This document shows positions 41,494 through 57,923 of a DNA stretch of 64,000 nucleotides, in pieces (position 1 is the first letter of the stretch; each line of letters starts with the position of its first letter). The position numbers were made by a program, and so were the translations under genes. Source of the DNA: Paraburkholderia aromaticivorans (lineage in GTDB: Bacteria > Pseudomonadota > Gammaproteobacteria > Burkholderiales > Burkholderiaceae); contig NZ_CP051516.1 of assembly GCF_012689525.1 (NCBI RefSeq), positions 1,426,001 to 1,490,000 on the forward strand, written 5' to 3'. The notes beneath the pieces are model-generated. The model was not told the DNA's origin. It ran no database searches and saw only the letters and a program-made list of their open reading frames with translations.

Positions 41494-42237
41494 ATGAAGC
41501 GATTGATCGAAACCGTCTCGTTCTGGGTCGTGATCGGCCTGATCTGGGAATTCGGCGTGCGCTGGACGGGCACGCGCGACTACGTGCTGCCGGCGCTCTC
41601 GCAGGTGTTCGCCGCCGGTTGGGAGATGCGCGGCCAGTTGCTCTCGGATACGCTCGCGACCGCCTGGGAAGTGTTCGCCGGTTTCGCGGTGGCGCTAGTC
41701 GGTGGCCTGGCGATCGGCCTGCTCGCGAGCATGTCGAGCATCGCGCGACGCACCTTGTTCCCGCTCGTCACCGCGTTGCAGAGCATGCCGAAGATCGCGC
41801 TCGCGCCCTTGCTGATCGTATGGTTCGGCTATGGATTCGCCTCGAAGCTGGCCGCGGCCGTGCTGTTCGCGTTCTTCCCGATCGTGATCGCGACGATGGG
41901 TGGTCTGTCCGGCGTGCCGCGCAATCTGGACGAGCATTTCCGCGCGCTCGGCGCGTCGCCGGCCAGGACCTTCTGGCATTTGCGCTTACCTGCTGCGTTG
42001 CCCGCGCTGATCGACGGCTTGAAGATCGCCATGCCGCTCGCGGTGATCGGCGCGATCGTCGGCGAGTTCATCGGTTCGGAGTCCGGGCTCGGGCATCTGA
42101 TCGTCTTCGCGACCTCGAACGCGCAGACGGCGCTTTCGTTCGCGGCGATCCTGATGGTCACCGCGCTGGCCATGCTATTTTACTGGGCCGTCGAACTGGT
42201 TTCGCGCGGCGTGTGGTGGAGAGGAGTGACGGTCTGA
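41494..42237 (+). CDS. ABC importer permease (TauC/SsuC type)
   Basis: A 247-residue inner-membrane permease with about six helices and the EAA-type loop 'LDEHFRALGASPARTFWHLR'. 'QSMPKIALAPLLIVWFGYG' is the usual TauC/SsuC segment. Its stop overlaps the ATPase start (TGATG). It partners the binding protein at 39775. Confidence 0.93.
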   Translation: MKRLIETVSFWVVIGLIWEFGVRWTGTRDYVLPALSQVFAAGWEMRGQLLSDTLATAWEVFAGFAVALVGGLAIGLLASMSSIARRTLFPLVTALQSMPKIALAPLLIVWFGYGFASKLAAAVLFAFFPIVIATMGGLSGVPRNLDEHFRALGASPARTFWHLRLPAALPALIDGLKIAMPLAVIGAIVGEFIGSESGLGHLIVFATSNAQTALSFAAILMVTALAMLFYWAVELVSRGVWWRGVTV

Positions 42238-43088
42238 TGGCACTGGTCGACAAGTTGCGTATCGTGCAGCGCGCCGCGGCAACCGGCGCGGCGATTCATC
42301 CACTGCGCCGGGACGAGACGGCGCCCGCGCTGATCTCGGTCGAGCAGGTGGGCAAGCGTTTCGCCGCACGCGGCGGCGCAGAAGCGTTCAGCGCGCTGGA
42401 CAGCGTCTCGATGCAGATTCGCGAGAGCGAGTTTGTTTCGATCCTGGGGCCGAGCGGTTGCGGCAAGAGCACCTTGCTGCGCATGGTCGCGGGCCTCGTG
42501 CCCTGTGACGACGGCCGCATCCTCCTCGGCGCCGAACCGATCGGCGCGCCGGTACCGGACATCGGTGTGGTGTTTCAGACCAGCAATCTGCTGCCATGGC
42601 TGAGCGTCGGCGCCAATATCCGACTCGGCGCGAAATTGCGGAATCTGCCGCGCGCGCAAGTGGATGAGCGGCTTCCCGCCTTGCTCGAAACGTTGGGTCT
42701 GACGGCGTTCGCCGATCGCTATCCGCATGAGTTGTCGGGCGGCATGCGGCAGCGCGCCGCGATCGGGCAGATTCTGCTGCTCGAACCACGCGTGATGCTG
42801 ATGGACGAGCCCTTCGGCGCGCTGGATGCGCTCACGCGCGACCGCCTGAATGTCGAGTTGCTGAGAATCTGGCAGCAGAGCACGCTTACCGTGTTGCTGG
42901 TGACGCATAGCATCCACGAGGCCGTATTCCTGTCGGACCGCGTGCTGGTGATGTCCGAACGCCCCGGCCGCGTGATTCACGACGTCAAAATCGATCTGCC
43001 GCGGCCGAGACAACCCGATCAGGTGAAAAGCGATCCGCTATACGGCGAGTACGTTTCGCAGTTGTCGAAACTGATGGGCGTGTTCTAG
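42237..43088 (+). CDS. ABC importer ATP-binding protein (TauB/SsuB type)
   Basis: A 283-residue ATPase with a 30-residue N-terminal extension. Walker A 'GPSGCGKST', Q-loop 'GVVFQTSNLLPWL', signature 'LSGGMRQR' and Walker B 'VMLMDEPFGALD' are intact. Last gene of the plus-strand importer unit; the 43128-43152 hairpin lies 40 bases past its stop. Confidence 0.94.
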   Translation: MALVDKLRIVQRAAATGAAIHPLRRDETAPALISVEQVGKRFAARGGAEAFSALDSVSMQIRESEFVSILGPSGCGKSTLLRMVAGLVPCDDGRILLGAEPIGAPVPDIGVVFQTSNLLPWLSVGANIRLGAKLRNLPRAQVDERLPALLETLGLTAFADRYPHELSGGMRQRAAIGQILLLEPRVMLMDEPFGALDALTRDRLNVELLRIWQQSTLTVLLVTHSIHEAVFLSDRVLVMSERPGRVIHDVKIDLPRPRQPDQVKSDPLYGEYVSQLSKLMGVF

Positions 43089-43181: not shown

Positions 43182-44063
43182 TCAATGCGCGGCGGCGTCC
43201 GTGACTTCATCGTTCCAGTAGGGCGGCAGCGTCTTATACGGATTGCCCCCGGAGAGCGACGTGACATACACGCCGCCCGCGCCATGCGTCTTCGCGTATT
43301 GCACGACACCCGGCAACTGCGCGGCGGTCGCGCCGTACACCATGTGCACGAAGCGGCTCTTCGGATAGGCGGCTTGCCAGCTCATCGGCTGGTATTTCGC
43401 ATAACTCTTCGCGGTACTTTCGAACACGACGAACTGGTCGGCCGTCGGCAAGCTCGCGTAAAGCTCGGGAATGTTGGTGCCCGGATTGGCCGTCACCGAG
43501 TAGGTGGCGTTCAGTCCTTTGATGTAGTTGTAGATCGACTGATAGAACTGGATGTGCGACATCTGGCTGTCGGACGTCATCTCGTCGATGAAGAAGCCGT
43601 CCACCTTATACATTGCCACGTAAGCATTGATGTCGGTCACGACCGCGGAAAGCGAGCGCTTGCCGTACGAGGTGGAGATATAGCCCAGTACCTTGCCGCC
43701 CGCGGCGCGAAGCTTGGCGGCCGCCGCCGCATAGTTCGGATCTTCCGTGACGCCGGGTCCGCTGTTCGGATTCAGGATGGCGGTGGTCGGCACCTTGCGC
43801 GCCGAGGTCACGAGACTGTTCCAGTTCGCGACGCTGCCGGTGGCGTTGAAGTAGGAAGGGACGACGAGACTGGTGGTTGTCGTGGTTGCCGTGGTTGCCG
43901 TGGTCGCCGCGAAGGCTGTGCCGTTCAGGCATCCTACAACTAGCAGGCCGGCGATCAGTCCGGCCCGTTTCAGACTTCTACCTGTGCGGCCCAAAAGACG
44001 GATTCCTTCCGCCGATTCCGAAGCCACAACCGCAACCGCACCCATTCCCCGATTTTCTTGCAT
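43182..44063 (-). CDS. Spherulin-4-like (GH135/Sph3-type) exported glycosidase
   Basis: About 293 residues. A long basic leader and hydrophobic stretch (about 35-51, 'AGLIAGLLVVGCLNGTAFA') export it, and a Thr-rich linker follows. The TIM-barrel carries 'SLVVPSYFNATGSVANWNSL', 'GKVLGYISTSYGKR' and 'VDGFFIDEMTSD', the spherulation-specific family 4 pattern. Fungal Sph3 of this family cleaves alpha-1,4-GalNAc polymers, and Pel is GalNAc-rich, so action on Pel is a fair inference given the divergent pel operon. The ATG at 44063 follows AGGAGG (44068-44073), and a c-di-GMP riboswitch lies in its leader. Confidence 0.8.
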   Translation of the reverse strand: MQENRGMGAVAVVASESAEGIRLLGRTGRSLKRAGLIAGLLVVGCLNGTAFAATTATTATTTTTSLVVPSYFNATGSVANWNSLVTSARKVPTTAILNPNSGPGVTEDPNYAAAAAKLRAAGGKVLGYISTSYGKRSLSAVVTDINAYVAMYKVDGFFIDEMTSDSQMSHIQFYQSIYNYIKGLNATYSVTANPGTNIPELYASLPTADQFVVFESTAKSYAKYQPMSWQAAYPKSRFVHMVYGATAAQLPGVVQYAKTHGAGGVYVTSLSGGNPYKTLPPYWNDEVTDAAAH

Positions 44064-44076
44064 GTAGCCTCCTGAC

Positions 44077-44118
44077 GCGGTGTGGTCACCGCTGTCGATT
44101 GGCCCGCCGTGGATACGG
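44077..44118 (-). promoter_or_regulatory. Expression-platform hairpins between riboswitch and ribosome-binding site
   Basis: Reading the minus strand, GCCCGCCG pairs with CGGCGGGC just after the aptamer, and GCGGTG/CACCGC (44077-44092) forms a second stem four bases before AGGAGG. The first hairpin's 5' arm (around 44113-44122) overlaps the 3' strand of aptamer P1, so the two structures exclude each other. Confidence 0.6.
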
Positions 44119-44119
44119 C

Positions 44120-44188
44120 GGGCAACTGGCAAACTCCCGCGAGGGAGTCCCTGTAGTTTTGCGTCGCCGGATCGCTCCGGGTTTGCCC
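44120..44188 (-). promoter_or_regulatory. Cyclic-di-GMP-I (GEMM-I) riboswitch aptamer
   Basis: On the minus strand the leader reads GGGCAAACC, a CCGGA stem with GCGA tetraloop and TCCGG, then CGACGCAAA, an ACTCCC/GGGAGT stem and TTGCCAGTTGCCC. GGGCAAACC and GACGCAAA are the invariant GEMM-I blocks around the ligand pocket, the GNRA loop is in the expected P2 position, and GGGCAA/TTGCCC closes P1. It lies 57 bases upstream of the AGGAGG-ATG of the spherulin-like gene. I read this by eye against the Vc2 aptamer; no covariance search was possible. Confidence 0.85.
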
Positions 44189-44841
44189 AAACTGCACTAA
44201 CGGCATCCCTTGAGTTTTCTTTAGGGGGCCGATTTATTTTTCTTATCGTTTGAATCGAATGCCCTCAAGAGTATCCCAAAATAATTTGCTGTTTTTACGT
44301 TTCGGTATTTATTGCAGCAAGCAGCGATGACCCGGGCGGACGAACCGGTCGAACGCGCGTGTTAGGCCGTGCTTAAAAAGATTTGCAGGAACTGAAAAAT
44401 GCACGACGGTGCATTTTTCCCGATGAGTTTATTGATCAGAACATTAAGGGTCGGCGAGATTAATCTGACATGCTGCGGCGATTTTCCAACACATAGCCAA
44501 ATTGCTTGACGAATCAATTTTAAGTATCCGCCGCGTTGATATCGGCTGCCTCTGGGCGCGCAATCGTTTGCCTTTGAATTCAAACGGATGCATTTGTCAG
44601 TGTTTAACTATCGGGATTCTCGCGATGACATAGGCGAGCTTGAGACGCCACATGTCATGTGATATCTTCCACCGCCTTACCAGTAACCAAACAAAAAGTC
44701 GGTATCGCATCCGCCGCACTGTCACTTTTGCGCGATGTAAATAATGCCGATGGGCCGGCTCGAAAATCCGCAAGCGGAAACTTTCTCCCCACAAGGAGGA
44801 CGCCGCTCGCGTTCAGACTGAACGGGGAAAAGATTTTGGCG
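44189..44841. other. Regulatory region between the riboswitch gene and pelA
   Basis: About 650 bases without a convincing gene. It should hold the minus-strand promoter for the riboswitch transcript and the pelA promoter. Visible symmetry includes AAAAATGCAC/GTGCATTTTT (44395-44418) and the palindrome CACATG-T-CATGTG (44649-44661), about 180 bases before pelA. Confidence 0.6.
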
Positions 44842-47637
44842 ATGAAGAAGCGGACCCGGGCATGCGCCGGCGGGGACTCTTGCGGGGTTGTCGAACGTGC
44901 GGGCGAACGATTTCTTGCGCGAAGCTTGATTGCGGTAATCCTTGGCGCGGCCGGTATTGCACCGCTCGTGACACATGCAGTGACGCAGGCTGAAACTGCA
45001 CCGTTGCAGTCCGCCGCTGCGGCGGACCACTCCGCCGCGTCTCAACCCAACCTCGCTTTCTTCTATGCAGCCGATCCGCCTGTCGGCGAATTGCAAGCAT
45101 TCGATGCCGTCGTGGTCGACCCCGCCACCGGTTTCGAACCGGCGGCCCACCCGCTGGCACATACCACGTGGATCGCGCGCACTAATGGCGCCGAGTCCGC
45201 CGGTTCGGCCGACGCGTTCCTCTCCAGCCAGATCGAGCCGCTGTGGCGGCGCGGCTATCGTGGCTTCCTGCTCGACACGCCCGCGGCCGTGGCCGCAGCC
45301 GGCCGCATTCATGAAGCTCATCCGGACGCGCGCCTCGTGGCGGGCGGCGCCGACGTCATGCGTAACGCGCTGCCGGTGGCGAAGTCGCTCTACGCGGTAG
45401 TTGGCGATTCGCTGGTGCGCGGTGTCGACGACAGCGGCCAGCTTCTCGAAGTCCCCGAATCGTTGCGTGCACAGCGCATGGCGGATGCGCGCGCGTTCAC
45501 GCAGCAAAGCGGCGTGCCGGTGGTGTCCGTGGAATATTGCGCGCGCAATGACCGGCAATGCGCCCGCGACACCGCCGCGCGCGTCGTATCGGCCGGCATG
45601 CTGCCTTACGTGACGAGCAAGGCGCGCGATGTGGTCGGCATCGGCAAGATCGAGGTTCTGCCGCGCAAGATTCTCATCGTGCAGGACCGCGATACCAAAG
45701 ATCCGCTCGACCTGAGCGCCGGTGTGCGCGATCTGGCCACGCCGCTCAACTATATGGGCTACGACGTCGAGTACGCCGACTTCTCGTCGCGTCTGCCGGA
45801 CGCCATTACGCCGGACCGTTACGCGGGTGTCGTCGCGTGGATCCAGCGCGGCGCGGTGCCGGATCCCGAAGCGTGGCAACGCTGGGTCGCGGCTCGCATG
45901 GCGGATCACGTTCCCGTTGCGTTTCTCGGCGCGTTCGGCTTCGACGCCGCCGGCTCGGCCGGCGCGGCGCTCGACCTGCAAGCCGTGGGCGGCACGCTGG
46001 CCGCGCCGGTCACGGTAGTCAAGAGCGATCCGATGGTCGGCTTCGAAATCAGCCCGAAGCCCGAGCCGCGCGATCTGCAAGGCGTGCGCGTGGGCTCGCG
46101 CAGTCAGTCGTTGCTGCGTGTCTCGGCCAACGGCGTACTGCTCGATCAGGTCGCGCTCACACCGTGGGGCGGCTACGCGCTCAGCCCGTACACCGTGGCG
46201 TCGCTCGACAGCATCGAGCAGGAACGCTGGGCGATTCAGCCGATGGCGTTCATGAAAGCGGCACTGCAGTTGCAGGACATGCCGTCGCCGAGCGTCACGA
46301 CCGAAAACGGCCGGCGGCTGTTCATGTCGCACGTGGACGGCGACGGTTTCGCCTCGCGCGCCGAATTCCCCGGCCCCGACTATTCCGGCGAAGCGCTGTA
46401 TCAGCAGATCTTCACCCGCTATCAGGTGCCGATGACGCTCTCCGTGATCGAAGGCGAAGTGGGTCCCAAGGGACTGCATCCGGATATCTCGCCGCGTCTC
46501 GAAGAGATCGCACGCAAGATGTTCGCGCTGCCGCATGTGGAGATCGGCACGCATACCTATTCGCATCCGTTCCAGTGGGAGCAGGTGGACAGCAAGACCG
46601 GCGCGCAGGTGGACCGCGGAGGCGGCGACGCGGCGTTCTCGCTGAACATTCCGGGTTATCACTTCAATATCGACCGTGAGATCACCGGTTCGATCGACTA
46701 CATCAACACGCGTCTTGCGCCGCCCGGAAAGAAGACCGTGCTGCTGCAATGGTCTGGCGACTGCCGGCCGCCGGGTTTCGTCGTGCGCAAGGTGTACGAA
46801 GCCGGTGTCTACAACTTCAACGGCGGCGACACGGTCATCACGAAATCGGCCAATAGCTGGACCAATATCGCGCCGATCGGCGTGGACAAGGGGCCCGGCG
46901 CTTATCAGGTGTACGCGCCGAATCAGGACGAGAACGTCTACACGAACGACTGGCAAGGTCCGTTCTACGGCTTCCAGCGCGTGCTCGAAACTTTCTCGAT
47001 GACCGACCGGCCGCTGCGTTTCAAGCCGATCGACGTCTACTACCACATGTATAGCGGTACCAAGGTGGCCTCGCTGCGCGCGCTCGACCAGATCTTTTCG
47101 ACGGTGCTCAAGCAGCCGGTGATGCCGGTTTACGTGAGCGAGTACATCCGCAAGGTGCTCGACTGGCACACGTTCGCCGTGGCGAAAGAGGTGGGCCCGC
47201 AGGCGAACGACTGGATCGTGCGCGGCAACGGCGAGGTGCGCGAGTTGCACTGGCCGCAGGCGGCCAAGCCGTCGCTCGCCGATGCTTCCGGCGTGACCGG
47301 TTTCGCAAACGGTCCGGACGGCACCTATATCCATATCGACGGCGGCAGCGCGCGCTTTGCGATCGGCAACGCCACGGCCACGGAAGCGACGCCGTATATC
47401 GGCGAAGCCAACGGGTTCGTGCGCAACTTCCGGCGCACGGCGCAGGGCATGCGTTTCGAGTTCGCCGGTCACTACCAGCCATTCGTCAAGCTGGCCAACG
47501 CGCAGCAATGCAAGGTCAGCGTCAACAAGCAGGCCGTCGCCGCGCGTCGCGACGGCGAGTTCCTGCGTTTCGATACGCTGGCTGAGGTCGGACAGAAATT
47601 GAACTACCAGTCAGTCGAGGTCGCTTGTGGCCGATAA
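44842..47637 (+). CDS. pelA: Pel polysaccharide deacetylase/hydrolase-like protein PelA
   Basis: A 931-residue periplasmic protein; the P. aeruginosa one is 948. Hydrophobic export segment about 29-47. Residues about 68-270 are the PelA hydrolase-like domain, but compared with the free-standing paralogue at 59162 it lacks two segments and has Asp189 (VVGDSLVRGVD) where the catalytic Glu belongs; Asp145 is kept. The middle is the linker/Rossmann-like part, and residues about 490-740 the CE4 deacetylase with Asp499, Asp501 (SHVDGDGF), His571 and His575 (THTYSHP). A start at 44659 is possible but adds 61 unlike residues. Deacetylation of Pel is expected; hydrolase activity is doubtful. Confidence 0.93.
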   Translation: MKKRTRACAGGDSCGVVERAGERFLARSLIAVILGAAGIAPLVTHAVTQAETAPLQSAAAADHSAASQPNLAFFYAADPPVGELQAFDAVVVDPATGFEPAAHPLAHTTWIARTNGAESAGSADAFLSSQIEPLWRRGYRGFLLDTPAAVAAAGRIHEAHPDARLVAGGADVMRNALPVAKSLYAVVGDSLVRGVDDSGQLLEVPESLRAQRMADARAFTQQSGVPVVSVEYCARNDRQCARDTAARVVSAGMLPYVTSKARDVVGIGKIEVLPRKILIVQDRDTKDPLDLSAGVRDLATPLNYMGYDVEYADFSSRLPDAITPDRYAGVVAWIQRGAVPDPEAWQRWVAARMADHVPVAFLGAFGFDAAGSAGAALDLQAVGGTLAAPVTVVKSDPMVGFEISPKPEPRDLQGVRVGSRSQSLLRVSANGVLLDQVALTPWGGYALSPYTVASLDSIEQERWAIQPMAFMKAALQLQDMPSPSVTTENGRRLFMSHVDGDGFASRAEFPGPDYSGEALYQQIFTRYQVPMTLSVIEGEVGPKGLHPDISPRLEEIARKMFALPHVEIGTHTYSHPFQWEQVDSKTGAQVDRGGGDAAFSLNIPGYHFNIDREITGSIDYINTRLAPPGKKTVLLQWSGDCRPPGFVVRKVYEAGVYNFNGGDTVITKSANSWTNIAPIGVDKGPGAYQVYAPNQDENVYTNDWQGPFYGFQRVLETFSMTDRPLRFKPIDVYYHMYSGTKVASLRALDQIFSTVLKQPVMPVYVSEYIRKVLDWHTFAVAKEVGPQANDWIVRGNGEVRELHWPQAAKPSLADASGVTGFANGPDGTYIHIDGGSARFAIGNATATEATPYIGEANGFVRNFRRTAQGMRFEFAGHYQPFVKLANAQQCKVSVNKQAVAARRDGEFLRFDTLAEVGQKLNYQSVEVACGR

Positions 47638-50600
47638 TCGCCCTCGCATCGCGCCCACGTGGCTCGTCCTGCTGCTCGCGGGCGTCGTGTTGATCACGCT
47701 GTATCTCGTGCATCCGCGCGGCGGTCTGCGTAGCCGGATGACGTCGACTGACGCGCCGAGCGATCTCAGCATCGCCTATCTGGAAGCATGGCTGCGCGTG
47801 CAGCCCGACAACACGGAAATCCTCTCGGTGCTCGGTACGCAGTACGTGCGTCTGGGCCGCAACGAGGACGCGCGCCGTATCGCCGCCCGCATGGAGGCGA
47901 TGCCGAGCGAGCAGATGCGCCGCGCGGCACAGTTGCTGCGTCTGACGGTCGACACGCGCGAGACGTTCGCGCTGCCCGCCAACGATCCGGGCCGCGAAGC
48001 CGCGCTTGCCCGTTTGCGCACGCAGCTTACGAATGCGGCTGCGCTGACGTGGTCGAATGCCGATCTGCAGATGCTGGCTGAAGCAGCCGCTTCGGTGAAT
48101 GCGCAACAGCTCGCCGGCCAGCTCTATGCGCGCCTCGCTGAACAGGATCCGGCGCAGCAAACGCGCTGGAACCGCGAAGTAGTGCGCTTCGCCATGTATG
48201 GCGGCGACTATCGCGGCGCGGCGAACGGCTGGTTCCGCTTGCAAGCCAGTGCGGCGACGTTCGATGCGAAACGTCAGTGCTTCATCGAAGGCATCAAGGC
48301 GTTGCAATCGGGCAACCTGCTCGACGAAGCGCTCGCTGCCGCCAACGAACACGGCGCCGCGTTTGCCCACGATCATGAGACGCTCGTCGTGCTGCTGAAT
48401 CTGGCGCGCGCGGCGCATCGTCCGGATCTCGTCGACCGCTACGCGAAGGCGCTGGCGGGCTATGCGCAGGCTCGGCCGGACCAGGACGGCGCGCTGCGAC
48501 TCGTCGACTTCATCCGCGAACGCGCGCGTGAAGACGGTTCGCAAGGGCAGTACGCTTATATGGATGGCCCGCAAGCCGGGTCCAGCCTCGCCACGCGCGC
48601 TCTTACGCACGGCTCGCGTGATGTGCATGTCGTGCGCGTCGCGGCGTCCACCGCTGCGCCGGTGTCCGCAAGTGCCGCGGCTGCTGCGTCTGTGTCGGCT
48701 GCTGCGCCAGCGTCTGCGAAGCCCGCGGCCGCTGCGTCTACCGCAACGGCATCAGGCGCCGCAGCAGCGCCGGCCGCTGCGTCGAACTCCGCCGCATCGA
48801 ACGACGTCCCGGGCCTCCTGTATCAGTCGTTCCTCGAATCGAGCGATCTGCCGAACGCACAGCGTGTGGCCACCGAGCAGGTCAGCAAGAACCCCGGTTC
48901 GCCAGTCTGGACCAAGCGCCTCGCCCAGGTCGCCGAATGGAACCATGCGTCGCCGCTCGCCTTGCAGATGTGGCTCACCTACGCACAGGCCACGCACGAT
49001 CCGGAAGGCTGGAAAAACGTCATGCGCCTCGCGCCGATGCTCAACGACGACAACGCCTATCTGGCCGCGTTGATCCAGGCATCGAACGCGGCGCCCGGCG
49101 ATCTCAAGCTGGTCGATTCGGTGGTCGCGGCCTACGAACGTCTCGGCCGTCCGGACGACGCGCTGGCTTTCCTGCGCACCCGTCAACGCAATTCGCCGGC
49201 GGAAGCGATCGACTCGCGTTTGGGTCAGCTCGCCGAGCGCTCCGGTCACGACGACGAAGCGCTGGCCTACTACCGCAAGCTGAATCAGCTCTATCCGTCG
49301 AACACGCAATACGCGCTGCGCACGGCGAGCCTCTTGTATCGTCACGGCGACTACAAGGGCGCGCTCGACACGTTGCTCGCCGCGCGCCGCGGTGCCAAGG
49401 ACGACGACGTGCTGTTCTGGCGCAACGCCGCGCAACTCGCGCGTCTGCTGCAGCGTGACGACATCGCGAACGACGCCTACAAGCATCTGCTGGCAAGCGG
49501 CCAGGCGGCGCCTGAAGACCTGAGCGCGATGACGTACTTCTACGACGCCTATCCGGTCGACGCGGCCCGCACGTCCGAGCTGCAGTTCCGCCGCGATCAC
49601 TCGCAGCGCGCGCTGCAGAGCGCGATTCACTATTACACCGATGCGGAGCAATACGACCGCGTCGACGCATTGCTGAAGAGCCTGACGCCCGAGCAACTGA
49701 CGGCCGCCGAAGCCGACCCGGCGTTCCTGCGCGTGCGGGCCGAATACTATCGCCAGATCGATCGTCCGCTCGACGCGCTGCACGATTTGCAGCACGCAGT
49801 GTCGCTGCCTGGCGCGACGCTCGACTTGCGCGCCGCGCTGCTCTGGACGCTGGTGGACTACGGCAGCGAAGCGCAATTGCGCGAGGCGGTCGCCGAATGG
49901 CGCGATGCGCCCGCGCAGGCGCCGGCTTTGTGGGGGCCGCTGGCCGCCGCGCTGATGCGTTTGAACCGGCCGGAAGCCGCGCTCAATTATCTGCGCCTGC
50001 AGTCCGCTTCGATGTCGCGCGATCCGCTGTGGCAACTCACCTACGCCGAAGCGCAGGAAATGGCGGGACGCAGCGATCTCGCATGGTCGATCCGCCGCAA
50101 CGTCTGGCGTCAGATGCAGCAGGAAGAGGCCGAGGTTCGCGCCAACAGCGCGCAAGGCCAGATCGTGCTGCGCACACGCGCCTCGCAGGGCAGCGAAGTG
50201 CGTGAGCAGATGCTCGGCCGCCGCGTCACGCTCGCGTCGATCTTCGAAAACGCGGACGTGTCGAAGGCTTTCCTGATCGATCTGCTCGCCAGCGACGCAG
50301 GCCGCAACGACAACGCCGAAGCGCGTCGCACGCTGCTCGGCGACGCGGCAGGCCTGCCGCCCTCGCAACCCACGAAGGCACACGCCGCGGCGAAGTCGCC
50401 GGACCAGGCGCAATTGACTTCGTCGGTGGCGCGCGACGTGGCGCTTGCCTGGGCGATGTCGCACGAAGCGAATCCGTTGGCGAAGCGCTGGCTGGCTCGC
50501 CAGTACGCCGACGTGCTGGTGCAGCCTTCGGAGCAGTTGATCGCGATCGCGCTCGCCGAAAACGACAAGCCCGCGATGGAGCGTCTGCTCGATCAGCAAG

Positions 50601-51670
50601 GCGCGCGCTTGCCGCTCTACAACCGTATCGATGCATCGATCGCCGTGGATCGTCCGGGCGCGGCAGAAAACCTCGCGTTTCAGGGCCTGGAAGGCGCGCC
50701 CTACGATTCGGAACTGCATGGCCGGCTGGAGCAGACCGCGTTGACGTGGCCGCAGTCGCTCGACGCGACCGTGACCAGCTACGTCGAACATCCGCTCGAC
50801 TATATCGAGCAGACGTTGGCGGGCAGCATCAAGGTCGCCGATCTCTACATGGTCGGCGTGAACGGTATCCAACGCTTCCAGCACTCGACGGATCAGTCGC
50901 AACTCACCAACGTACCTTCGGTGGATCGTTCGGTGGAGTTTTACGCGCGCCGTCAAACGTACGACACCGCCTTCATGGTGACCGCCGGCCGCCGCGAAGC
51001 ACTGGACAGTTTCTATAGCGTGTCGGTGGGCGCGGAGTGGGGCAGGAATTCGCCGTTGTCGATCGCGCTGAAAGCGGGCCGCAATCAGGTGGCGCGGGAA
51101 TCGCAGGCATTGCAGGTCGGCGGCATGAAGGACAACGTGGTCGGCACGATCACATACCGCGCGACCCAGCATCTGTATGCGACGGGCACCGTCGAAGCCG
51201 ATCGTTTCTATAGCCAGGCGCGCAATTACCTCGGCAGCGGCGTGCTCTCGACAGGTGAGATCGGCTATCGGATCCGCACGAACTATCCGGACTACACGGT
51301 GCGCCTGATCGGCGCGCATGGCGACTACGGTGCGAGCGGCTCTGCGGACGGCCTGATTTCGCGGCTAATCCCAGCGGACGCCGGCCCGGTCACCGCATCG
51401 ACCTTCATCCCGCAGACCTACTCGCAATACGGGCTGTTCTTCGGTTTCGGCAACGATCTGATCGACCAGTACACGCGCGCATGGCGGCCGTTCCTCGATG
51501 TCGGCCTGCTGCACGACTCGTTCCAGGGCTGGGGTCCGTCGATCAGTCTGGGCCTCGCGGGCACGGTGTTCGGCGGCGATCACGCGGCACTCTTTTTCTC
51601 GCATCAGCGCGTCTCGCGTCTCGGCACACCGGTGACCCAGATCGGCGCGCGCTATAGCTGGTTTTATTGA
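47627..51670 (+). CDS. pelB: Pel outer-membrane export porin with TPR scaffold PelB
   Basis: A 1347-residue protein, longer than P. aeruginosa PelB (1193). An N-terminal TM helix (about 12-30, 'WLVLLLAGVVLITLYLVHP') leads into TPR repeats. An Ala/Ser-rich linker interrupts them at about residues 345-390. A C-terminal beta-barrel (about 1070-1347) ends 'RYSWFY'. It binds PelA and PelC and passes the polymer across the outer membrane. The GTG at 47627 overlaps the pelA stop by 11 bases. Confidence 0.95.
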   Translation: MADNRPRIAPTWLVLLLAGVVLITLYLVHPRGGLRSRMTSTDAPSDLSIAYLEAWLRVQPDNTEILSVLGTQYVRLGRNEDARRIAARMEAMPSEQMRRAAQLLRLTVDTRETFALPANDPGREAALARLRTQLTNAAALTWSNADLQMLAEAAASVNAQQLAGQLYARLAEQDPAQQTRWNREVVRFAMYGGDYRGAANGWFRLQASAATFDAKRQCFIEGIKALQSGNLLDEALAAANEHGAAFAHDHETLVVLLNLARAAHRPDLVDRYAKALAGYAQARPDQDGALRLVDFIRERAREDGSQGQYAYMDGPQAGSSLATRALTHGSRDVHVVRVAASTAAPVSASAAAAASVSAAAPASAKPAAAASTATASGAAAAPAAASNSAASNDVPGLLYQSFLESSDLPNAQRVATEQVSKNPGSPVWTKRLAQVAEWNHASPLALQMWLTYAQATHDPEGWKNVMRLAPMLNDDNAYLAALIQASNAAPGDLKLVDSVVAAYERLGRPDDALAFLRTRQRNSPAEAIDSRLGQLAERSGHDDEALAYYRKLNQLYPSNTQYALRTASLLYRHGDYKGALDTLLAARRGAKDDDVLFWRNAAQLARLLQRDDIANDAYKHLLASGQAAPEDLSAMTYFYDAYPVDAARTSELQFRRDHSQRALQSAIHYYTDAEQYDRVDALLKSLTPEQLTAAEADPAFLRVRAEYYRQIDRPLDALHDLQHAVSLPGATLDLRAALLWTLVDYGSEAQLREAVAEWRDAPAQAPALWGPLAAALMRLNRPEAALNYLRLQSASMSRDPLWQLTYAEAQEMAGRSDLAWSIRRNVWRQMQQEEAEVRANSAQGQIVLRTRASQGSEVREQMLGRRVTLASIFENADVSKAFLIDLLASDAGRNDNAEARRTLLGDAAGLPPSQPTKAHAAAKSPDQAQLTSSVARDVALAWAMSHEANPLAKRWLARQYADVLVQPSEQLIAIALAENDKPAMERLLDQQGARLPLYNRIDASIAVDRPGAAENLAFQGLEGAPYDSELHGRLEQTALTWPQSLDATVTSYVEHPLDYIEQTLAGSIKVADLYMVGVNGIQRFQHSTDQSQLTNVPSVDRSVEFYARRQTYDTAFMVTAGRREALDSFYSVSVGAEWGRNSPLSIALKAGRNQVARESQALQVGGMKDNVVGTITYRATQHLYATGTVEADRFYSQARNYLGSGVLSTGEIGYRIRTNYPDYTVRLIGAHGDYGASGSADGLISRLIPADAGPVTASTFIPQTYSQYGLFFGFGNDLIDQYTRAWRPFLDVGLLHDSFQGWGPSISLGLAGTVFGGDHAALFFSHQRVSRLGTPVTQIGARYSWFY

Positions 51671-51707: not shown

Positions 51708-52259
51708 ATGTACGGCATTAAACGATTGGCTCGTACGAGCGCCTGGTGTGTCGCGGCAGCCGCGCTTGCCGTGATGGTGAGCGCGTGCGGCACAGTGCGC
51801 CAGACGTCGGGCCCGGCGCTCGCGCGCGGCGACAAGGTGGCGGTGGTGTCGATCGCCAACTACACTGAAACGCCGGATGCCGGTCATAGCGCCGAGTCGA
51901 TCGCGGCCAACACGCTGCGCGCGGGCGGGATCGCCGATGTGCGCATCGCGCCGGCCGATTCGAACCGCAACTCCCTGTTCGACACGACGCAGCGCGCCGA
52001 CAGCGACAAGGCGCTGGAATGGGCGCGTTCGCAGAACGCCCGCTATGTGCTGTCGGGCGCGGTCGAAGAATGGCGCTACAAGACGGGTGTGGACGGTGAG
52101 CCGGTGGTCGGCGTGACGTTTGAACTGATCGACGTGTCGAACGGCGCCGTGGTGTGGAGTGCGACGGGTACGCGTACGGGCTGGAGCCGCTCGGGTCTGT
52201 CGAGTGTGGCGACCTCGCTGATCGCCAAAGTTCTGTCGCCGTTGCAAGCGCGTCAGTAA
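51708..52259 (+). CDS. pelC: Pel outer-membrane lipoprotein PelC
   Basis: A 183-residue lipoprotein with the lipobox 'VMVSAC' (Cys27). PelC forms a dodecameric periplasmic funnel that guides positively charged Pel to PelB. 'ARYVLSGAVEEWRYKTGVDG' and 'VEVSNGAVVW'-like strands (here 'LIDVSNGAVVWSATG') match the family. A clear AAGGAGA precedes the ATG. Confidence 0.93.
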   Translation: MYGIKRLARTSAWCVAAAALAVMVSACGTVRQTSGPALARGDKVAVVSIANYTETPDAGHSAESIAANTLRAGGIADVRIAPADSNRNSLFDTTQRADSDKALEWARSQNARYVLSGAVEEWRYKTGVDGEPVVGVTFELIDVSNGAVVWSATGTRTGWSRSGLSSVATSLIAKVLSPLQARQ

Positions 52260-52342
52260 GGACGTCAGTAAGCATATCCCCAAGGTTGCGGCTTGCGCCC
52301 GAAGTGCGGGCCGCAAGCCGCAACCCGACATGTGAAAAGGAA

Positions 52343-53761
52343 ATGGCCGTGAATACCGCAGCCGTGGAAAACAACCCGGGCGCCTCGAAGCCGCGCCATG
52401 CGCATCCGTTCGGCAATCTCGGACGCGTGCGCCGCTTGCTGGCGCCCGCGGTGGCGCGGCCGTTCGCGATCGTGGAGACCGTCCTGCTCGTGCTGGTCGT
52501 ACTGGCCGTGGCCCGCTGGCTTCATCCTGAAGACCCGTTGCTGCTGCACAATGGTTTTCCGTGGCTGTGGCTGGCTTCGTTGCTGGTGGCCTTGCGCTAC
52601 GGCAGCCTGCTCGGCTTGCTGAGCGGAGCTTTGATGGTCGGCGCATGGGCGCTCTTTTATCCGCACGGCGGCCCGTTCCCCACGCTGTATTTCGCGGGCG
52701 GTTTGATCCAGACGATTCTCGCCGGGCACTTCGGCGATACGTGGGGCAGCCGCGCTGAGCGCGCGTCCTCGCTGAACGATTACCTGAACGACCGTCTCGT
52801 CGCGTTGACCAACAGTCACTATCTGCTGCGACTTTCGCACGAGCGGCTCGAAAAGGATTTGCTGTCCCGCCCGACCACGTTGCGCGATTCGATTACCGAG
52901 TTGCGCCGTCTGTCGGTCGCCACCGATACGGCGCTCGCCGTGCCCGCAGCGGGCAAGGAAAACGCTCCGCTCGGCGGCGCAAGCGGTCTGCTCGAATTTG
53001 TCGCGCAAGCCTGCCAGATCGAAGTCGCGGCGTTGTATCCAGTGCATCACGGCAAGCTCGGCACGCAGGCCATCGCGCAGATCGGCGACCCGTTCGAACT
53101 CGCCATGCACGACGAACTCGTCACGCATGCGCTCAACACGCTGAGCGTCGCGCATCTGAAGAACGAAGATACGGTCGTGCCGGTCAGCCAGTATCTGGTG
53201 TGCGCGCCGCTCGTGTCCGCGGACGGTGAACTGCGTGCGCTGCTCGTCGTCAAGCGCATGCCGTTCCTGTCGCTCAATTTCGACAACCTGCAACTGCTGC
53301 TGGTGTTGCTCGGCTATTACGCCGACGGCGTCGAGCATTCCGCCTTCGTGCAGCGCATTCTCGACCGCGTGCCGAACTGCCCGTACGAATTCGCGCTCGA
53401 CCTGAGCCGTCTCACGCGTCTTCAGCAGAAGGCGGGCGTGGCGTCGTCGCTCGTCGCGCTCGCGTTTCCGCGCGATGAAGAGGGCGACTCGCTGTTCGAG
53501 CATGTCATGCGCCGCCGTCGTTCACTCGACGTGATGTGGCCGGTGCAGACGGCCAGGCAGTCGGTGCTGGTGAATCTGATGCCGGCTACCGATACGACCG
53601 GTATCGACGGCTATCTGGCACGGATCGAAGCCAGCCTGACGGCCCAGTTCAACACCGACCTGGAACGCGCGCGCGTCGGCGTTCACACGCTCCACCTCGA
53701 GGGCGACGAGCCGGGCGCGGCGCTGATGCGTCTTCTCAAACGAAGCGGCCTCGATGTCTAA
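52343..53761 (+). CDS. pelD: Cyclic-di-GMP-binding Pel polymerisation regulator PelD
   Basis: A 472-residue inner-membrane protein (455 in P. aeruginosa). About four TM helices in residues 35-130, a GAF domain (about 195-350) and a degenerate GGDEF domain. The inhibitory-site motif is Arg393-Ser-Leu-Asp396 (RRRSLDV), followed by an Arg in 'YLARIEASL', matching the c-di-GMP-binding residues of P. aeruginosa PelD. Binding of c-di-GMP is expected to switch on PelF through this protein. AAAAGGAA precedes the ATG at 52343. Confidence 0.95.
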   Translation: MAVNTAAVENNPGASKPRHAHPFGNLGRVRRLLAPAVARPFAIVETVLLVLVVLAVARWLHPEDPLLLHNGFPWLWLASLLVALRYGSLLGLLSGALMVGAWALFYPHGGPFPTLYFAGGLIQTILAGHFGDTWGSRAERASSLNDYLNDRLVALTNSHYLLRLSHERLEKDLLSRPTTLRDSITELRRLSVATDTALAVPAAGKENAPLGGASGLLEFVAQACQIEVAALYPVHHGKLGTQAIAQIGDPFELAMHDELVTHALNTLSVAHLKNEDTVVPVSQYLVCAPLVSADGELRALLVVKRMPFLSLNFDNLQLLLVLLGYYADGVEHSAFVQRILDRVPNCPYEFALDLSRLTRLQQKAGVASSLVALAFPRDEEGDSLFEHVMRRRRSLDVMWPVQTARQSVLVNLMPATDTTGIDGYLARIEASLTAQFNTDLERARVGVHTLHLEGDEPGAALMRLLKRSGLDV

Positions 53762-54764
53762 GGCCCTTTCTCTCATCGTCAGCGCGCTCGCGGCCGTGGT
53801 GGCCGTGATCGTGCAATATCTGGCGATCGCGAGCCTGCTGCAACCGGCCGGCGCGATCGATCCGTTGCTGCGCTTTTTCGCGTTGCAGGCGTTGGCGGGA
53901 CTCGCCGAGGCGGTCGCGTTCCGCTCGTGGCTGCCGCTGAATTATCGCGAGCCCCGGGCGGTTTCGTTGCTGTTCCTGTGGCTCGCCTGCACCTTCGTGC
54001 CGCTGTTCGGCGGCATCGTGGTGCTGATCAGCTGCATCTGGGCGGCACTCTTTCCGGGCAGCAAGGACAGCGATCAACTCGCCGATGTGCCACGCCCGGA
54101 ATTCGTCACCTACCTGGTGTCACGTGTGTCGCACGGCGGCGGCGCGCGGCTGCAGGCGCGCCTCGCCAACACTCAGGTGTCGGCTACCGACCGGCTGTCC
54201 GCGCTCGTGGCGATCCAGAGCATGCCTACCCGCACCACGGGCACATTGTTGCGCGAGTTGCTTGCCGACCCGCTCGAAGACATTCGCCTGATCGCTTACG
54301 GCACGCTGGATCACGCCGAAAACGAAATCATGCAGAAGATCTTCCGCACCAGCAAAGCGCTGGAAGCGACTGACAACGACGTCGAACGCCGCGCGCTCAA
54401 CCGCTTGCTCGCCGAGTTGTACTTCGAACTCGTGTACCAGAACCTGGTGCAGGGCGCGGTTTACCGCCATACGCTGCAACAGGCCGACCGCTACGCCCAG
54501 GCGGCGCTCGAAACCGATCCGGGCGATGCCGCGCTGTGGCTGATTCGCGGCCGTCTCGCACTGGCGAACGGCTTGCCCAATGCCGCGCATGAATACATCG
54601 GCCAGGCGCTCGCACTCGGTTTTCCGCGCGAACGGCTGGTGCCGTGGCTGGCGGAAGCCGACTTCCTGCGCGGCGACTACGCCAGCGTCAAACAGCTTCT
54701 CGCATCGCTGGGCAATGCTGCCGCGTTGCCCACACTCAAACCGGTTGTGAAGTACTGGTCATGA
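53754..54764 (+). CDS. pelE: Pel inner-membrane TPR protein PelE
   Basis: A 336-residue protein with two TM segments near the N-terminus ('LAAVVAVIVQYLAIASLLQ' and 'CTFVPLFGGIVVLISCIW') and TPR-like helices after about residue 200. It is part of the PelDEFG synthase complex. It overlaps the pelD stop by eight bases and the pelF start by four. Confidence 0.93.
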   Translation: MSKALSLIVSALAAVVAVIVQYLAIASLLQPAGAIDPLLRFFALQALAGLAEAVAFRSWLPLNYREPRAVSLLFLWLACTFVPLFGGIVVLISCIWAALFPGSKDSDQLADVPRPEFVTYLVSRVSHGGGARLQARLANTQVSATDRLSALVAIQSMPTRTTGTLLRELLADPLEDIRLIAYGTLDHAENEIMQKIFRTSKALEATDNDVERRALNRLLAELYFELVYQNLVQGAVYRHTLQQADRYAQAALETDPGDAALWLIRGRLALANGLPNAAHEYIGQALALGFPRERLVPWLAEADFLRGDYASVKQLLASLGNAAALPTLKPVVKYWS

Positions 54765-56413
54765 TGAAAGAACTCCCGATCCGCCGTGCCGCCGATGCCG
54801 ATGTCTGCCTGCTGCTCGAAGGTACGTTCCCGTTCGTGCGTGGCGGCGTGTCGAGCTGGGTCAATGAAATGATCCGCTCCTACCCGGAGACCCGGTTCGC
54901 GATTGTGTTCATCGGCAGCCGGGAACAGGACTATAACGGTGTCGCCTATGCGTTACCGGACAACGTCGTGCATATCGAAACGCACTTCCTGTACGAGCAG
55001 GCCGTGGCGGATTTTCAGCCACGTGCCGTCGCTGGCGATGCCGCGGCGTTCGCGCGCTCACAGGAGTTGCACGACGCCTTGCGTGATCCGCGCCATGGCC
55101 TGGACGCCGGTGGCCTGATGGCCGGCATGATCCCGATGCTCGGGACGAAGGGCGCGCTGAACGAGGAACAGTTCCTGTCGAGTCGCGCGGCCTGGGACAC
55201 GATTGTCGATCAGTATCAGAAGTACTGCACCGATCCCTCGTTTACCGACTACTTCTGGACCGTGCGCATCATGCACAAGCCGCTGTGGCAACTCGCGCGC
55301 GTCGCCGAGAAGCTGTTGCCGGCGAAGGTCTATCACACGGTATCGACGGGTTACGGCGGCTTTCTCGGCGCACTGATGCATTACCGTACGGGCCGTCCGC
55401 TGCTGATCTCCGAGCACGGCATCTATACGAAAGAGCGCAAGATCGACCTGCTGCAGAGCCAGTGGATTCGCGACAACCGCGGCGTGTTCGAACGCGATAT
55501 CTCGCGCGTCAGTTATTTCCGCGAGTTGTGGGTGCGTTTCTTCGAAGCGATTGGCAAGCTCGCGTACGACGCCGCGGACGATATCGTCGCGTTGTACGAG
55601 GCGAACCGTCAGCGCCAGATCACGGACGGCGCGCGTGCCGAGCGCACGCAATGCATTCCGAACGGGATCGATGTCGACGCGCTGGCGCCGCTGGTGGCTG
55701 AGCGCAAGCCGCGCTCGCACCACGTGGTCGCGCTGATCGGGCGCGTGGTGCCGATCAAGGATATCAAGACCTTCATTCGCGCGATCTTCATTGCGTCGCG
55801 CACCATGCCGGACCTCGAAGGCTGGATCATCGGGCCGGAAGAGGAAGATCCCGCTTACGCGCTCGAATGCCGCGCGCTGGTGGAGAGTCTCGGCTTGAGC
55901 CGCAATGTGAAATTCCTCGGCTTCCAACGCATCGACGACATGATGCCGCAGATCGACGTGATCGCGCTGACCTCGATCAGCGAGGCGCTGCCGCTGGTGG
56001 TGCTGGAAGGCTTCGCGGCCGGCGTGCCCGCCATCACGACGGACGTGGGCTCGTGCCGTCAGCTGATCGAAGGCGTGGATGCGGAAGATCGCGCGCTCGG
56101 CTCCGCGGGTGCGGTAGTCCAGCTCGCGGACCCGGCCGCCTTCGCCCAGGCTGTGCTGGCGCTGCTCGCCGACGAAACCCGCTGGCAGGCCGCGCAGCAA
56201 GCCGGACTCGCGCGCGTGCGCCGCTATTACACCAAGAAGCAGATGATCGACCGCTATCGCACGCTGTATGAGCGCCTCGCCGCGCTGCCGGACCGCGAGC
56301 GCAACGCTACGGCCGCCGATGCGGCGCGCTGCCCGATGCACCACGGCACCCAATCCAAGGCGGAGCCGCGCGTGCAATCGGCGCAGCCCGTTCAATCGCA
56401 GGAGACACGCTAA
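54761..56413 (+). CDS. pelF: Pel glycosyltransferase PelF (GT4)
   Basis: A 550-residue cytoplasmic GT-B glycosyltransferase that polymerises Pel from UDP-GalNAc/GlcNAc. 'LLLEGTFPFVRGGVSSWVNE' begins the acceptor domain; the donor domain has 'IGRVVPIKDIKTFIRA' and the E-x7-E region 'ISEALPLVVLEGFAAGVP'. The ATG at 54761 overlaps the pelE stop. A low-complexity Gln/Ser-rich tail (about 515-550) is unusual and may be tolerated. Confidence 0.95.
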   Translation: MMKELPIRRAADADVCLLLEGTFPFVRGGVSSWVNEMIRSYPETRFAIVFIGSREQDYNGVAYALPDNVVHIETHFLYEQAVADFQPRAVAGDAAAFARSQELHDALRDPRHGLDAGGLMAGMIPMLGTKGALNEEQFLSSRAAWDTIVDQYQKYCTDPSFTDYFWTVRIMHKPLWQLARVAEKLLPAKVYHTVSTGYGGFLGALMHYRTGRPLLISEHGIYTKERKIDLLQSQWIRDNRGVFERDISRVSYFRELWVRFFEAIGKLAYDAADDIVALYEANRQRQITDGARAERTQCIPNGIDVDALAPLVAERKPRSHHVVALIGRVVPIKDIKTFIRAIFIASRTMPDLEGWIIGPEEEDPAYALECRALVESLGLSRNVKFLGFQRIDDMMPQIDVIALTSISEALPLVVLEGFAAGVPAITTDVGSCRQLIEGVDAEDRALGSAGAVVQLADPAAFAQAVLALLADETRWQAAQQAGLARVRRYYTKKQMIDRYRTLYERLAALPDRERNATAADAARCPMHHGTQSKAEPRVQSAQPVQSQETR

Positions 56414-57786
56414 TGGCGGGTATTGGCTTCGAATTACGCAAGATCATGCGCCGCGACACGCTGACCGGCGTGGCGCGCGCCTATGCCTACGCGGGCCTGA
56501 TCAGTTCCGGTCCGCTGATCCTGTCGATCTTCGGCATCCTGATCATCGGGCTGATCAGTCTCACTTCGGTGATTCCGACCTTCGCGATCGTGCAGTTTCA
56601 GGTGTCGGTCACGTATCTGATCGCGCTCAGTCTGATTCTGACCGGGCCGTTGCAATTGTCGTTCACGCGCTTCATCTCCGACCGGCTGTTCGAAAAGCGC
56701 GACGACCTCGTGCTGTCGAACTATAACGGCGTGGTGCTGGTGTCGTCGATTCTGGCCAGTGTGGTCGCGGTGATCGCGATGCTGGTGGGTTTCCGCGAGG
56801 AGCCCCTGATCTACCGCTTGCTGATGATTACGGGCTTCGTGGTGGTCAGCAACATCTGGATCGCGGTGATCTTTTTGTCGAGCGTGAAGCAGTACCGGCA
56901 GATCCTGGTGGTGTTCGCGGTCGGCTATGCGTGCGTGGTGTGCCTCGCGCTCGCGTTGAACGGCTATGGACTGGTCGGTCTGCTCGGCGGCTTCGTGGCG
57001 GGGCACATCGTGCTGCTCGCCGGTCTGTCGGGTCTGATTTACCGTAACTACCGCAGCGAGCGTTTCGTTTCGTTCGAAGTGTTCGAGCGGCGCTTCGCCT
57101 ATCCGAGCCTCGCGCTGGTCGGCCTGCTGTTCAATATCGGCGTGTGGCTCGACAAGTTTATGTTCTGGTATACGCCGGGCACGGGCACGCGCGTGATCGG
57201 GCCGCTGCACGCGTCGGTGATTTACGACATTCCGATTTTTATCGCTTACGTGTGCGTGATGCCCGGCATGGCGACGTTCCTCGTGCGCATCGAGGCGGAT
57301 TTCGTCGAGTACTACGATGCCTTCTACGACGCGGTGCGCAGCGGCGCGACGCTGCGGCATATCAACGAAATGCGCGACATGATGGTGGGCAGCGTGCGTG
57401 CCGGCCTGTACGAAATCATCAAGGTGCAGTCGGTCGTGCTGCTGCTGATCATCGCCTTCGGCGAGCGCGTGCTGGGCTCGCTCGGCATTTCGCCGCTGTA
57501 TATGCCGCTGCTCGTCGTCGACGTGGTGTCGGCGAGTCTGCAGGTGTTGCTGCTGGGTCTGCTCAACGTGTTCTTCTATCTCGACGGAAGGCGTATGGTG
57601 CTGCGGCTCACCGGCGCATTCGTCGTGCTGAATGGACTCTTCACCGGCATTACGCTCAGGCTAGGGCCGGATTTCTACGGCTATGGATTTGCACTGGCGT
57701 TGCTGGTCGTGGTGGTGGCATCCGTGAAGGTGCTCGACCGCAAATTCATGTCTTTGGAATACGAGACGTATATGTTGCGGGGTTGA
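56413..57786 (+). CDS. pelG: Pel inner-membrane transporter PelG
   Basis: A 457-residue polytopic (about twelve-helix) protein of the MOP/Wzx-like superfamily, beginning with the PelG signature 'MAGIGFELRKIMRRDTLTG'. It forms the synthase complex with PelD, PelE and PelF and translocates the nascent chain. The ATG overlaps the pelF stop by one base. This closes the canonical pelA-G set. Confidence 0.95.
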   Translation: MAGIGFELRKIMRRDTLTGVARAYAYAGLISSGPLILSIFGILIIGLISLTSVIPTFAIVQFQVSVTYLIALSLILTGPLQLSFTRFISDRLFEKRDDLVLSNYNGVVLVSSILASVVAVIAMLVGFREEPLIYRLLMITGFVVVSNIWIAVIFLSSVKQYRQILVVFAVGYACVVCLALALNGYGLVGLLGGFVAGHIVLLAGLSGLIYRNYRSERFVSFEVFERRFAYPSLALVGLLFNIGVWLDKFMFWYTPGTGTRVIGPLHASVIYDIPIFIAYVCVMPGMATFLVRIEADFVEYYDAFYDAVRSGATLRHINEMRDMMVGSVRAGLYEIIKVQSVVLLLIIAFGERVLGSLGISPLYMPLLVVDVVSASLQVLLLGLLNVFFYLDGRRMVLRLTGAFVVLNGLFTGITLRLGPDFYGYGFALALLVVVVASVKVLDRKFMSLEYETYMLRG

Positions 57787-57923
57787 ATCCAGGGCGTCGC
57801 TGTTTCGGCCCGAGATCGTGTTCATGCTGCCGTTCTAGAAGCGGTGAGGGCAGGGCGCGCTTGACGAGGCGAACCGGCGCGTCGGCACCCTCAGCCTCAC
57901 ACCGTTCGACTTCGGATTCCTCC

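Follow-up and report, generated by a model that had tools for sequence, protein, structure and literature searches.

Organization of the sph4 and pel genes

The window, by which we mean the whole 64-kb stretch of Paraburkholderia aromaticivorans DNA that was analysed, contains a gene for a predicted glycosidase, here denoted sph4, which is separated by 595 bp from the divergently oriented pelA gene of a pel cluster. The protein-coding features of the locus are the following:

43182..44063, minus strand: sph4, GH135/Spherulin4-type glycosidase, 293 aa (PF12138, E 5.3e-46)
44659..47637, plus strand: pelA, divergent from sph4, 992 aa (PelA structure, PDB 9cgy, E 2.3e-142)
47627..51670, plus strand: pelB (PF24604)
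52154..53761, plus strand: pelD, c-di-GMP receptor (PF16963; PDB 4dmz)
54644..57786, plus strand: pelF and pelG (PF11997; PF16933)

The sph4 product matches the Pfam Spherulin4 family with 157.5 bits (cut-off 30.2) and carries a likely Sec signal, as judged by eye. Its relatives in the PDB at an E-value of 0.001 are the Aspergillus Sph3 entries 5c5g and 5d6t (best E 3.5e-13). Three acidic residues that correspond to the catalytic region of Sph3, D160, E161 and E215, do not vary among 42 homologues, and 5c5g has the same residues at these positions. A preliminary description of the locus had placed a spherulin-4-like glycosidase gene directly downstream of a riboswitch, which is borne out by these matches. 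The same description called the enzyme a 'Pel-type' glycosidase next to pel; the neighbourhood is as described, with pelA divergent, but the family is GH135 (Sph3-like) and not the GH166 of PelA. Sph3, a GH135 enzyme, is reportedly unable to disrupt the Pel biofilm of P. aeruginosa and is described as disrupting GalNAc-rich aggregates of S. intermedius, and the characterised GH135 favours the fully acetylated polymer (PMC12054363, PMC12345266). The enzyme encoded at the present locus is predicted to cut, probably, the cell's own Pel.

Within the pel cluster, the ORF in the pelC position matches LpoB weakly, and the one in the pelE position had no Pfam match. PelD retains the RxxD motif (RSLD, residues 456-459, aligned with RGLD of P. 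aeruginosa PelD, 4dmz), in agreement with the c-di-GMP site that had been ascribed to a nearby PelD. After pelG, at 57144-60097 (plus strand), there are two ORFs with GH114 matches (PF03537; 57144-59123 and 59096-60097), followed by galE and glmS, so that the cluster seems to include extra predicted galactosaminidases and precursor genes. On the other side of sph4, at 42180-43013 (minus strand), lies a conserved ORF that matched no family of Pfam or NCBIfam and that is co-directional behind sph4 in several relatives (for example L030, L032 and L035).

A c-di-GMP-I aptamer precedes sph4

When the 64-kb window was scanned with cmscan for 4227 Rfam families, one match reached its gathering threshold, RF01051 (c-di-GMP-I), at 44197-44118 on the minus strand, with 49.3 bits (gathering threshold 35; E 1.3e-6) and over the full length of the model (positions 1-87). 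In a search of the whole 10.8-Mb genome with RF01051 at E 0.001, this was the sole match found. The element proposed in the preliminary description is thus confirmed, at the level of sequence, as a genuine c-di-GMP-I riboswitch match; the span given for it, 44064-44188, starts nine bases inside the Rfam match and does not take in the promoter described below. The features of the leader, in the order of transcription, are as follows:

44219..44223, minus strand: -35 element TAAAG of a predicted sigma-28 (FliA) promoter (1.5-2.0 bits per column in 33 leaders)
44198..44204, minus strand: -10 element GCCGTTA, 14 nt from the -35 element (1.2-2.0 bits per column)
44118..44197, minus strand: c-di-GMP-I (GEMM-I) riboswitch aptamer (RF01051, 49.3 bits, E 1.3e-6)
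44191..44193, minus strand: predicted transcription start, 5-7 nt before G20, as judged from the position of the -10 element
44186, minus strand: G20-equivalent, placed by sequence (role from PMC6274999, PMC9262584)
44167..44180, minus strand: P2 stem CCGGA/UCCGG with a GCGA (GNRA) tetraloop (RF01051 match and fold)
44122, minus strand: C92-equivalent, predicted ligand contact that also pairs in P4 (placed by aligned words)
44102..44123, minus strand: P4 hairpin GCCCGCCGU-AUCC-ACGGCGGGC of the predicted expression platform (pairing and covariation in 42 leaders)
44101..44103, minus strand: predicted 5' arm of P5a, GCC, overlapping the last P4 pairs (part of an anchor word)
44074..44096, minus strand: P5 hairpin, closed by GAC/GUC and abutting the ribosome site (pairing in 42 leaders)
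44068..44073, minus strand: Shine-Dalgarno sequence AGGAGG, ahead of the ATG at 44063 (sequence)
44067..44069, minus strand: predicted 3' arm of P5a, GGC, overlapping the end of the Shine-Dalgarno sequence (42 leaders, partition functions)

The GEMM-I words GGGCAAACC (from 44188) and GACGCAAA and the P3 stem are all present, as are the GNRA-capped P2, the GC-rich hairpin GCCCGCCG/CGGCGGGC (within 44123-44102) and the AGGAGG (44073-44068) to which the preliminary description had drawn attention. The fold of the 137-nt leader is more stable than that of 200 out of 200 dinucleotide shuffles (z -3.5). In Vc2, C92 is the base that contacts the ligand. Counterparts of this base are described as C75 in pilM and C87 in Cd1 (PMC9262584). 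Position 20 has been tied to the selectivity for c-di-GMP versus cGAMP (PMC6274999, PMC9262584); a cGAMP-type (GEMM-Ib) switch was considered and rejected, because the base at this position is G (44186). Some of the aptamers analysed here may already be included in the Rfam full alignment of RF01051.

A predicted sigma-28-type promoter abuts the aptamer

The sequence TAAAG-N14-GCCGTTA at 44223-44198 (minus strand) directly abuts the 5' side of the aptamer. TAAAG-N13..15-GCCGWTA is the sigma-28 consensus of E. coli, and the motif upstream of sph4 conforms to it at a fixed place: of 30 leaders, 29 have 10-12 nt between the last A of the -10 element and G20, and the remaining one has 24 nt. A related sigma-28-type motif is described in Bdellovibrio (PMC3627812). 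Scored against TAAAG plus GCCGWTA, 33 chosen leaders from genomes named Paraburkholderia, Caballeronia or Burkholderia reach 10-12 of 12 positions, a score of 10 being attained by 2.2% of shuffles. Across these leaders, the columns of the two boxes contain 1.2-2.0 bits, compared with 0.1-0.8 bits for those spacer columns that are shown.

The motif is present at 33 of 38 loci in this group of genera and in every leader of the group that bears the aptamer, whereas five loci of the same genera without aptamer (L038, L052, L058, L162 and L163) score 8 and lack it. Two loci keep both the motif and the gene with a degraded or unseen aptamer, namely L034, which has lost P3 and has other letters in P5/P5a, and L161, in which no aptamer was seen. 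The motif is absent from 11 leaders of Ralstonia or Burkholderiaceae MAGs and from two leaders of Oxalobacteraceae; L099, read by eye, has none. Seven Ralstonia leaders (L083, L085, L087-L090 and L092) share a TAGAGTCnTnnnnCAATGGGTTCACAC block where the motif would stand.

In the P. aromaticivorans genome, the exact motif occurs 28 times, compared with 13 occurrences of the reversed pattern. One copy lies 29 nt before the GTG start of flgM (PF04316, E 2e-13), and 12 of 27 ORFs with an MCP-signal domain have a site scoring at least 10 near their start, as against 1 of 27 for the reversed control. FliA-dependent transcription of sph4 is inferred from these patterns. The preliminary description had overlooked the promoter, and its recognition changes the biological reading of the locus. 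Elsewhere, a sigma-28-like motif scoring 10 of 12 immediately precedes a GEMM-I match without sph4 in a Zoogloea MAG (L101), so that the pairing of riboswitch and motif may occur in other settings too; and in the P. aromaticivorans genome (L112, contig C1 near 1619900), a short Flp-pilin-like ORF is preceded at ~150 nt by a sigma-28-like motif located by eye.

Expression platform

Base pairing in the RNA was scored in 42 leaders, which were anchored on conserved words common to all of them, with no fitted alignment. These counts leave out L034 and L161, neither of which has an intact aptamer, together with L025 (gene broken), L026 (match in an apparent coding region, without sph4), L043 and the G163 locus. 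The set does contain L085 and L086, for which the start codons were located by hand.

Two hairpins, P4 and P5, stand out. The six pairs of P4 are formed in 243 of 252 cells (78-125 in slid controls), and for the pairs at C92+2, +4, +5 and +7, which lie beyond C93, nearly all of 500 shuffles gave a lower frequency of pairing. Because the anchor words fix C92-G, C93-G and the GCC, these carry no independent weight. Pairing of C92 in P4 is predicted to exclude its contact with the ligand. The three closing pairs of P5 are formed in 123 of 126 cells (1-60 in slid controls), with compensatory double changes in L099, L104 and L003 (G-C to A-U, A-U to U-A and C-G to U-A); these double changes come from three leaders, two of which belong to Oxalobacteraceae.

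A third element, P5a, would link the two hairpins to the ribosome site. The arrangement GCC-N4-P5 followed by N4 or N3 and GGC is found in all 42 leaders, the GGC being located 4 nt past P5 in 34 of them and 3 nt past it in 8, and the GGC is kept even in Oxalobacteraceae, where the Shine-Dalgarno sequence differs. The first G of the GCC is the partner of C92 in P4. P5a gains no support from covariation, because it is invariant and its GCC belongs to an anchor word. In partition functions of the leader only, the mean probability of P5a in the 42 leaders rises from 0.21 with P4 free to 0.89 with C92-C93 taken; this capture raises P5a in 39 of the 42 and lowers it in 2, and the Shine-Dalgarno sequence becomes less open in 37 and more open in none. 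When the 5' tail and the amount of coding sequence were varied in twelve contexts, each context gave a rise of P5a in 27-39 of 42 leaders and a fall in 0-2, and the predicted closing of the ribosome site weakens with added coding length. For instance, with 45 nt of coding sequence and the aptamer omitted, openness of the Shine-Dalgarno sequence is lower in 16 leaders, higher in 9 and the same in 17, and in constrained runs with the same 45 nt, it is lower in 15-18 and higher in 7-9 of the 42. When P2 and P3 are forced in the leader of the window itself, P5a climbs from 0.00 to 0.96, and the openness of the Shine-Dalgarno sequence is 0.51 in the free and 0.50 in the bound state; in the unconstrained fold of this leader, part of P3 pairs with the GGC. 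Overall, sequence and folding support a predicted hand-off from P4 to P5a, whereas the direction of the switch, given the mixed effect on the Shine-Dalgarno sequence once coding sequence is included, is assigned as likely OFF.

The preliminary description had proposed a different switching device, a closing P1 helix GGGCAA/TTGCCC, the 3' strand of which overlaps the 5' arm of the GC-rich hairpin. The two strands are indeed complementary in the window, but they are not supported as a conserved helix. The inner four pairs coincide with near-invariant positions of the aptamer core, so that covariation says little there; by letters, 4 of the 42 leaders break the C-G pair and 2 of them the last A-U pair. 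Outward from G19-C93, the successive pairs form in 41, 25, 30 and 13 of 42 leaders, close to the means of the shuffles. As the outer pairs perform no better than shuffles, we consider P1 unsupported as a conserved helix and rejected it as the switching helix; the overlap that is kept is that of the ligand-contacting C92 with hairpin P4. This lack of support for a closing helix P1 is not decisive for membership in RF01051, because Cd1 is described without P1 (PMC9262584) and the Rfam model itself has no P1 pairs. An intrinsic terminator was also considered and discarded: for 43900-44700, the scan listed nothing resembling a terminator on the minus strand, and no T run stands behind P4.

Distribution of the aptamer and co-occurrence with pel

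The RF01051 search of 144 genomes of the same genus, in which stricter filters were applied and weak matches were lost, yielded a match in 26 genomes, above the cut-off in 24. Sequence of sph4 lies directly downstream of the match in 25 of the 26 loci, one of these genes being broken: in L025, the aptamer is weakened (31.8 bits) and sph4 is in fragments, with the sigma-28-type motif and pelA persisting. The exception is L026, a match without sph4. Two further loci, L080 and L102, have no sph4. Among 34 further genomes bearing the gene, RF01051 is found somewhere in 24, and the aptamer stands right before sph4 in 18, to which G163 can be added by coordinates. These 18 include Caballeronia, Burkholderia sp. 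8Y, Ralstonia, a Burkholderiaceae MAG and Oxalobacteraceae. The element is accordingly conserved upstream of homologues, a point that the preliminary description had suggested checking. By contrast with these lineages, relatives in Nitrosomonas, Zoogloea and Acidovorax have no aptamer at the sph4 homologue, and in two Zoogloea loci sph4 lies directly before pelA with the aptamer absent. The Zoogloea genomes G170, G171 and G172 contain 5, 3 and 2 GEMM-I matches, respectively.

The pelA gene is next door in 15 of the 25 same-genus sph4 loci; the other 10 have no pelA within the flanking ~1.5 kb, yet all ten of the respective genomes encode PelG, so that the link between sph4 and pel is one of co-occurrence more than of adjacency. 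The nine proteins encoded next to three such unlinked loci (L040, L051 and L060) show no common theme. Across the 144 genomes, PF12138 is found in 27 and PelG in 60, with PelG present in 25 of the 27 genomes with sph4 versus 35 of the 117 without it; in the two genomes with the gene and no PelG (G001 and G055), the gene is a distant member of the family and no aptamer match was obtained. Both sph4 and PelG are present in all 24 genomes whose aptamer exceeds the cut-off. Fisher tests, which are uncorrected for the kinship of the genomes, give 1.5e-9 for the gene with PelG and 2.7e-11 for the aptamer with PelG. In the 34 further gene-bearing genomes, PelG is found in 31, and in 18 of the 19 that have both aptamer and gene, the one without a PelG match being the MAG G164.

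Proposed mechanism and alternatives

We propose that sph4 is controlled by a sigma-28-promoted, likely translational OFF switch of the c-di-GMP-I class, such that the enzyme would be made in motile cells with low c-di-GMP and likely cuts the cell's own Pel, a reading to which we assign a probability of roughly 0.57. RNA polymerase with FliA would initiate 5-7 nt ahead of G20, as suggested by the conserved motif, and a start at this position would leave no room for a long P1. As long as no ligand is bound, P4 is predicted to take up C92 with the rest of the aptamer's 3' edge, with P5 forming alongside and the Shine-Dalgarno sequence open. Upon binding, c-di-GMP would take C92 and the base of P4 would open; the freed GCC would then find its partner in the GGC that overlaps the Shine-Dalgarno end, and the resulting P5a would stack on P5 and shut the ribosome site. 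At high c-di-GMP, PelD would make Pel with the enzyme off; once c-di-GMP drops and the flagellar genes are on, the enzyme would be transcribed and translated and would trim or dissolve Pel. A more specific version, in which a P1-less GEMM-I aptamer with its C92 relay acts as a two-key dispersal gate, with transcription needing the flagellar sigma factor and translation needing the absence of c-di-GMP, is put forward tentatively, at a little under even odds.

Several alternatives have to be weighed against this scenario. If the switch were of the ON type, c-di-GMP would raise the enzyme, which would aid processing or release of Pel during its synthesis, much like Sph3 in Aspergillus, where the enzyme is described as essential for synthesis of GAG (galactosaminogalactan) (PMC12054363). 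GEMM-I switches are reported to work in both directions (PMC9262584), closing of the Shine-Dalgarno sequence is not clear with coding sequence included, and a Pel enzyme co-produced with Pel would likewise co-occur with pelG. However, capture of C92 raises P5a in 27-39 of 42 leaders per context and lowers it in at most 2, and a motility sigma factor promoter would be odd for a gene needed at high c-di-GMP, which makes the ON direction unlikely. We consider control at the level of transcription rather improbable. In that case, Rho-dependent termination or the decay of the RNA, instead of ribosome access, would be governed by the two hairpins in tandem, and the conserved P4 and P5 could hide or expose a Rho site; yet the minus strand of 43900-44700 showed no terminator-like site, P4 is not followed by a T run, and the fixed distance from P5 to the GGC at the Shine-Dalgarno end points to translation.

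A switch based on P1, as in the preliminary description, would have GGGCAA/UUGCCC close on the ligand in competition with the hairpin. The letters of the window allow this, and Vc2 is described as dependent on P1 (PMC9262584), but the second and third outer pairs, at 25 and 30 of 42, do no better than shuffles, a transcript from the predicted start would have 5-7 nt ahead of G20, and Cd1 is presented in the same source as a GEMM-I switch without P1; this device therefore seems very improbable. Swimming cells could deploy the enzyme against fungal galactosaminogalactan or another polymer, in keeping with the reported preference of the characterised GH135 for fully acetylated polymer (PMC12345266, PMC12054363) and with the 10 of 25 same-genus loci that are not beside pelA. 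Set against this are the co-occurrence of PelG in 25 of 27 same-genus and 31 of 34 other gene-bearing genomes and the adjacency of pelA in 15 of 25 same-genus loci and, with the aptamer missing, in two Zoogloea loci, and we regard a target other than the cell's own Pel as unlikely.

Should the proposed OFF switch acting on the cell's own Pel be correct, this would be, as far as the literature searched shows, the first riboswitch on an enzyme dismantling the cell's own Pel matrix. One messenger would set the making of Pel, through the PelD protein, and its cutting, through the RNA switch, in opposite directions across a facing promoter, and the flagellar programme would decide on transcription of the cutter, yielding a circuit for leaving the Pel biofilm. 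The bacterial GH135-type family would become a candidate endogenous Pel hydrolase, and a GEMM-I platform that is seemingly independent of P1 would be common to leaders of Burkholderiaceae and Oxalobacteraceae. The novelty claimed in the preliminary description for a riboswitch on a matrix hydrolase is upheld insofar as no paper pairing 'spherulin' with 'riboswitch' was found in the library searched. Nothing on sph4 appeared among the matches listed for c-di-GMP riboswitches (with Burkholderia and GEMM, or with FliA, motility and exopolysaccharide), nor among the best matches listed for Pel, Sph3 and riboswitch, for the pel operon and Paraburkholderia, or for hydrolases and dispersal.

Comparison with known systems

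The leader of sph4 has in common with other RF01051 switches, such as Vc2 and Cd1, the aptamer core, the GNRA-capped P2, P3 and the equivalents of G20 and C92. Vc2 is described as a translational OFF switch that requires P1, and Cd1 as having no P1 (PMC9262584). The sph4 leader is set apart within the class in that P1 is unsupported, that the P4/P5/P5a platform would pass the partner of C92 to the ribosome site, that a sigma-28-type start abuts the aptamer and that the target is a GH135-type gene. The pilM riboswitch, in which the ligand-contacting base (C75) is described as paired by the terminator (PMC9262584), similarly shares this C with a downstream hairpin.

In regulatory logic, the nearest system appears to be that of ZmpI (CD2830) of C. 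difficile, which is reported to be repressed by c-di-GMP via a type I switch and to cut the neighbouring c-di-GMP-induced adhesin CD2831 (PMC4591827): in both cases, a GEMM-I-repressed degradative enzyme would be encoded beside the c-di-GMP-activated factor that it removes. ZmpI is a protease acting on a protein adhesin, whereas the sph4 product is a predicted glycosidase that would act on a matrix polysaccharide in Gram-negatives, with control predicted at translation and a promoter of the motility type. Compared with the Aspergillus GH135 enzyme Sph3 (5c5g, 5d6t), which belongs to the same family and has the same acidic residues of the catalytic region, the enzyme encoded by sph4 is bacterial, riboswitch-led and co-occurs with pel. 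A tie between a c-di-GMP riboswitch RNA and the FliA-associated motile phase is also described for the merRNA of Bdellovibrio, which is made in massive amounts during the attack phase, when FliA dominates (PMC3627812), and in the present case this tie is suggested by the promoter motif. In that study, merRNA is presented as having no conserved downstream gene and is proposed to be a store of c-di-GMP, whereas the RNA described here leads a gene.
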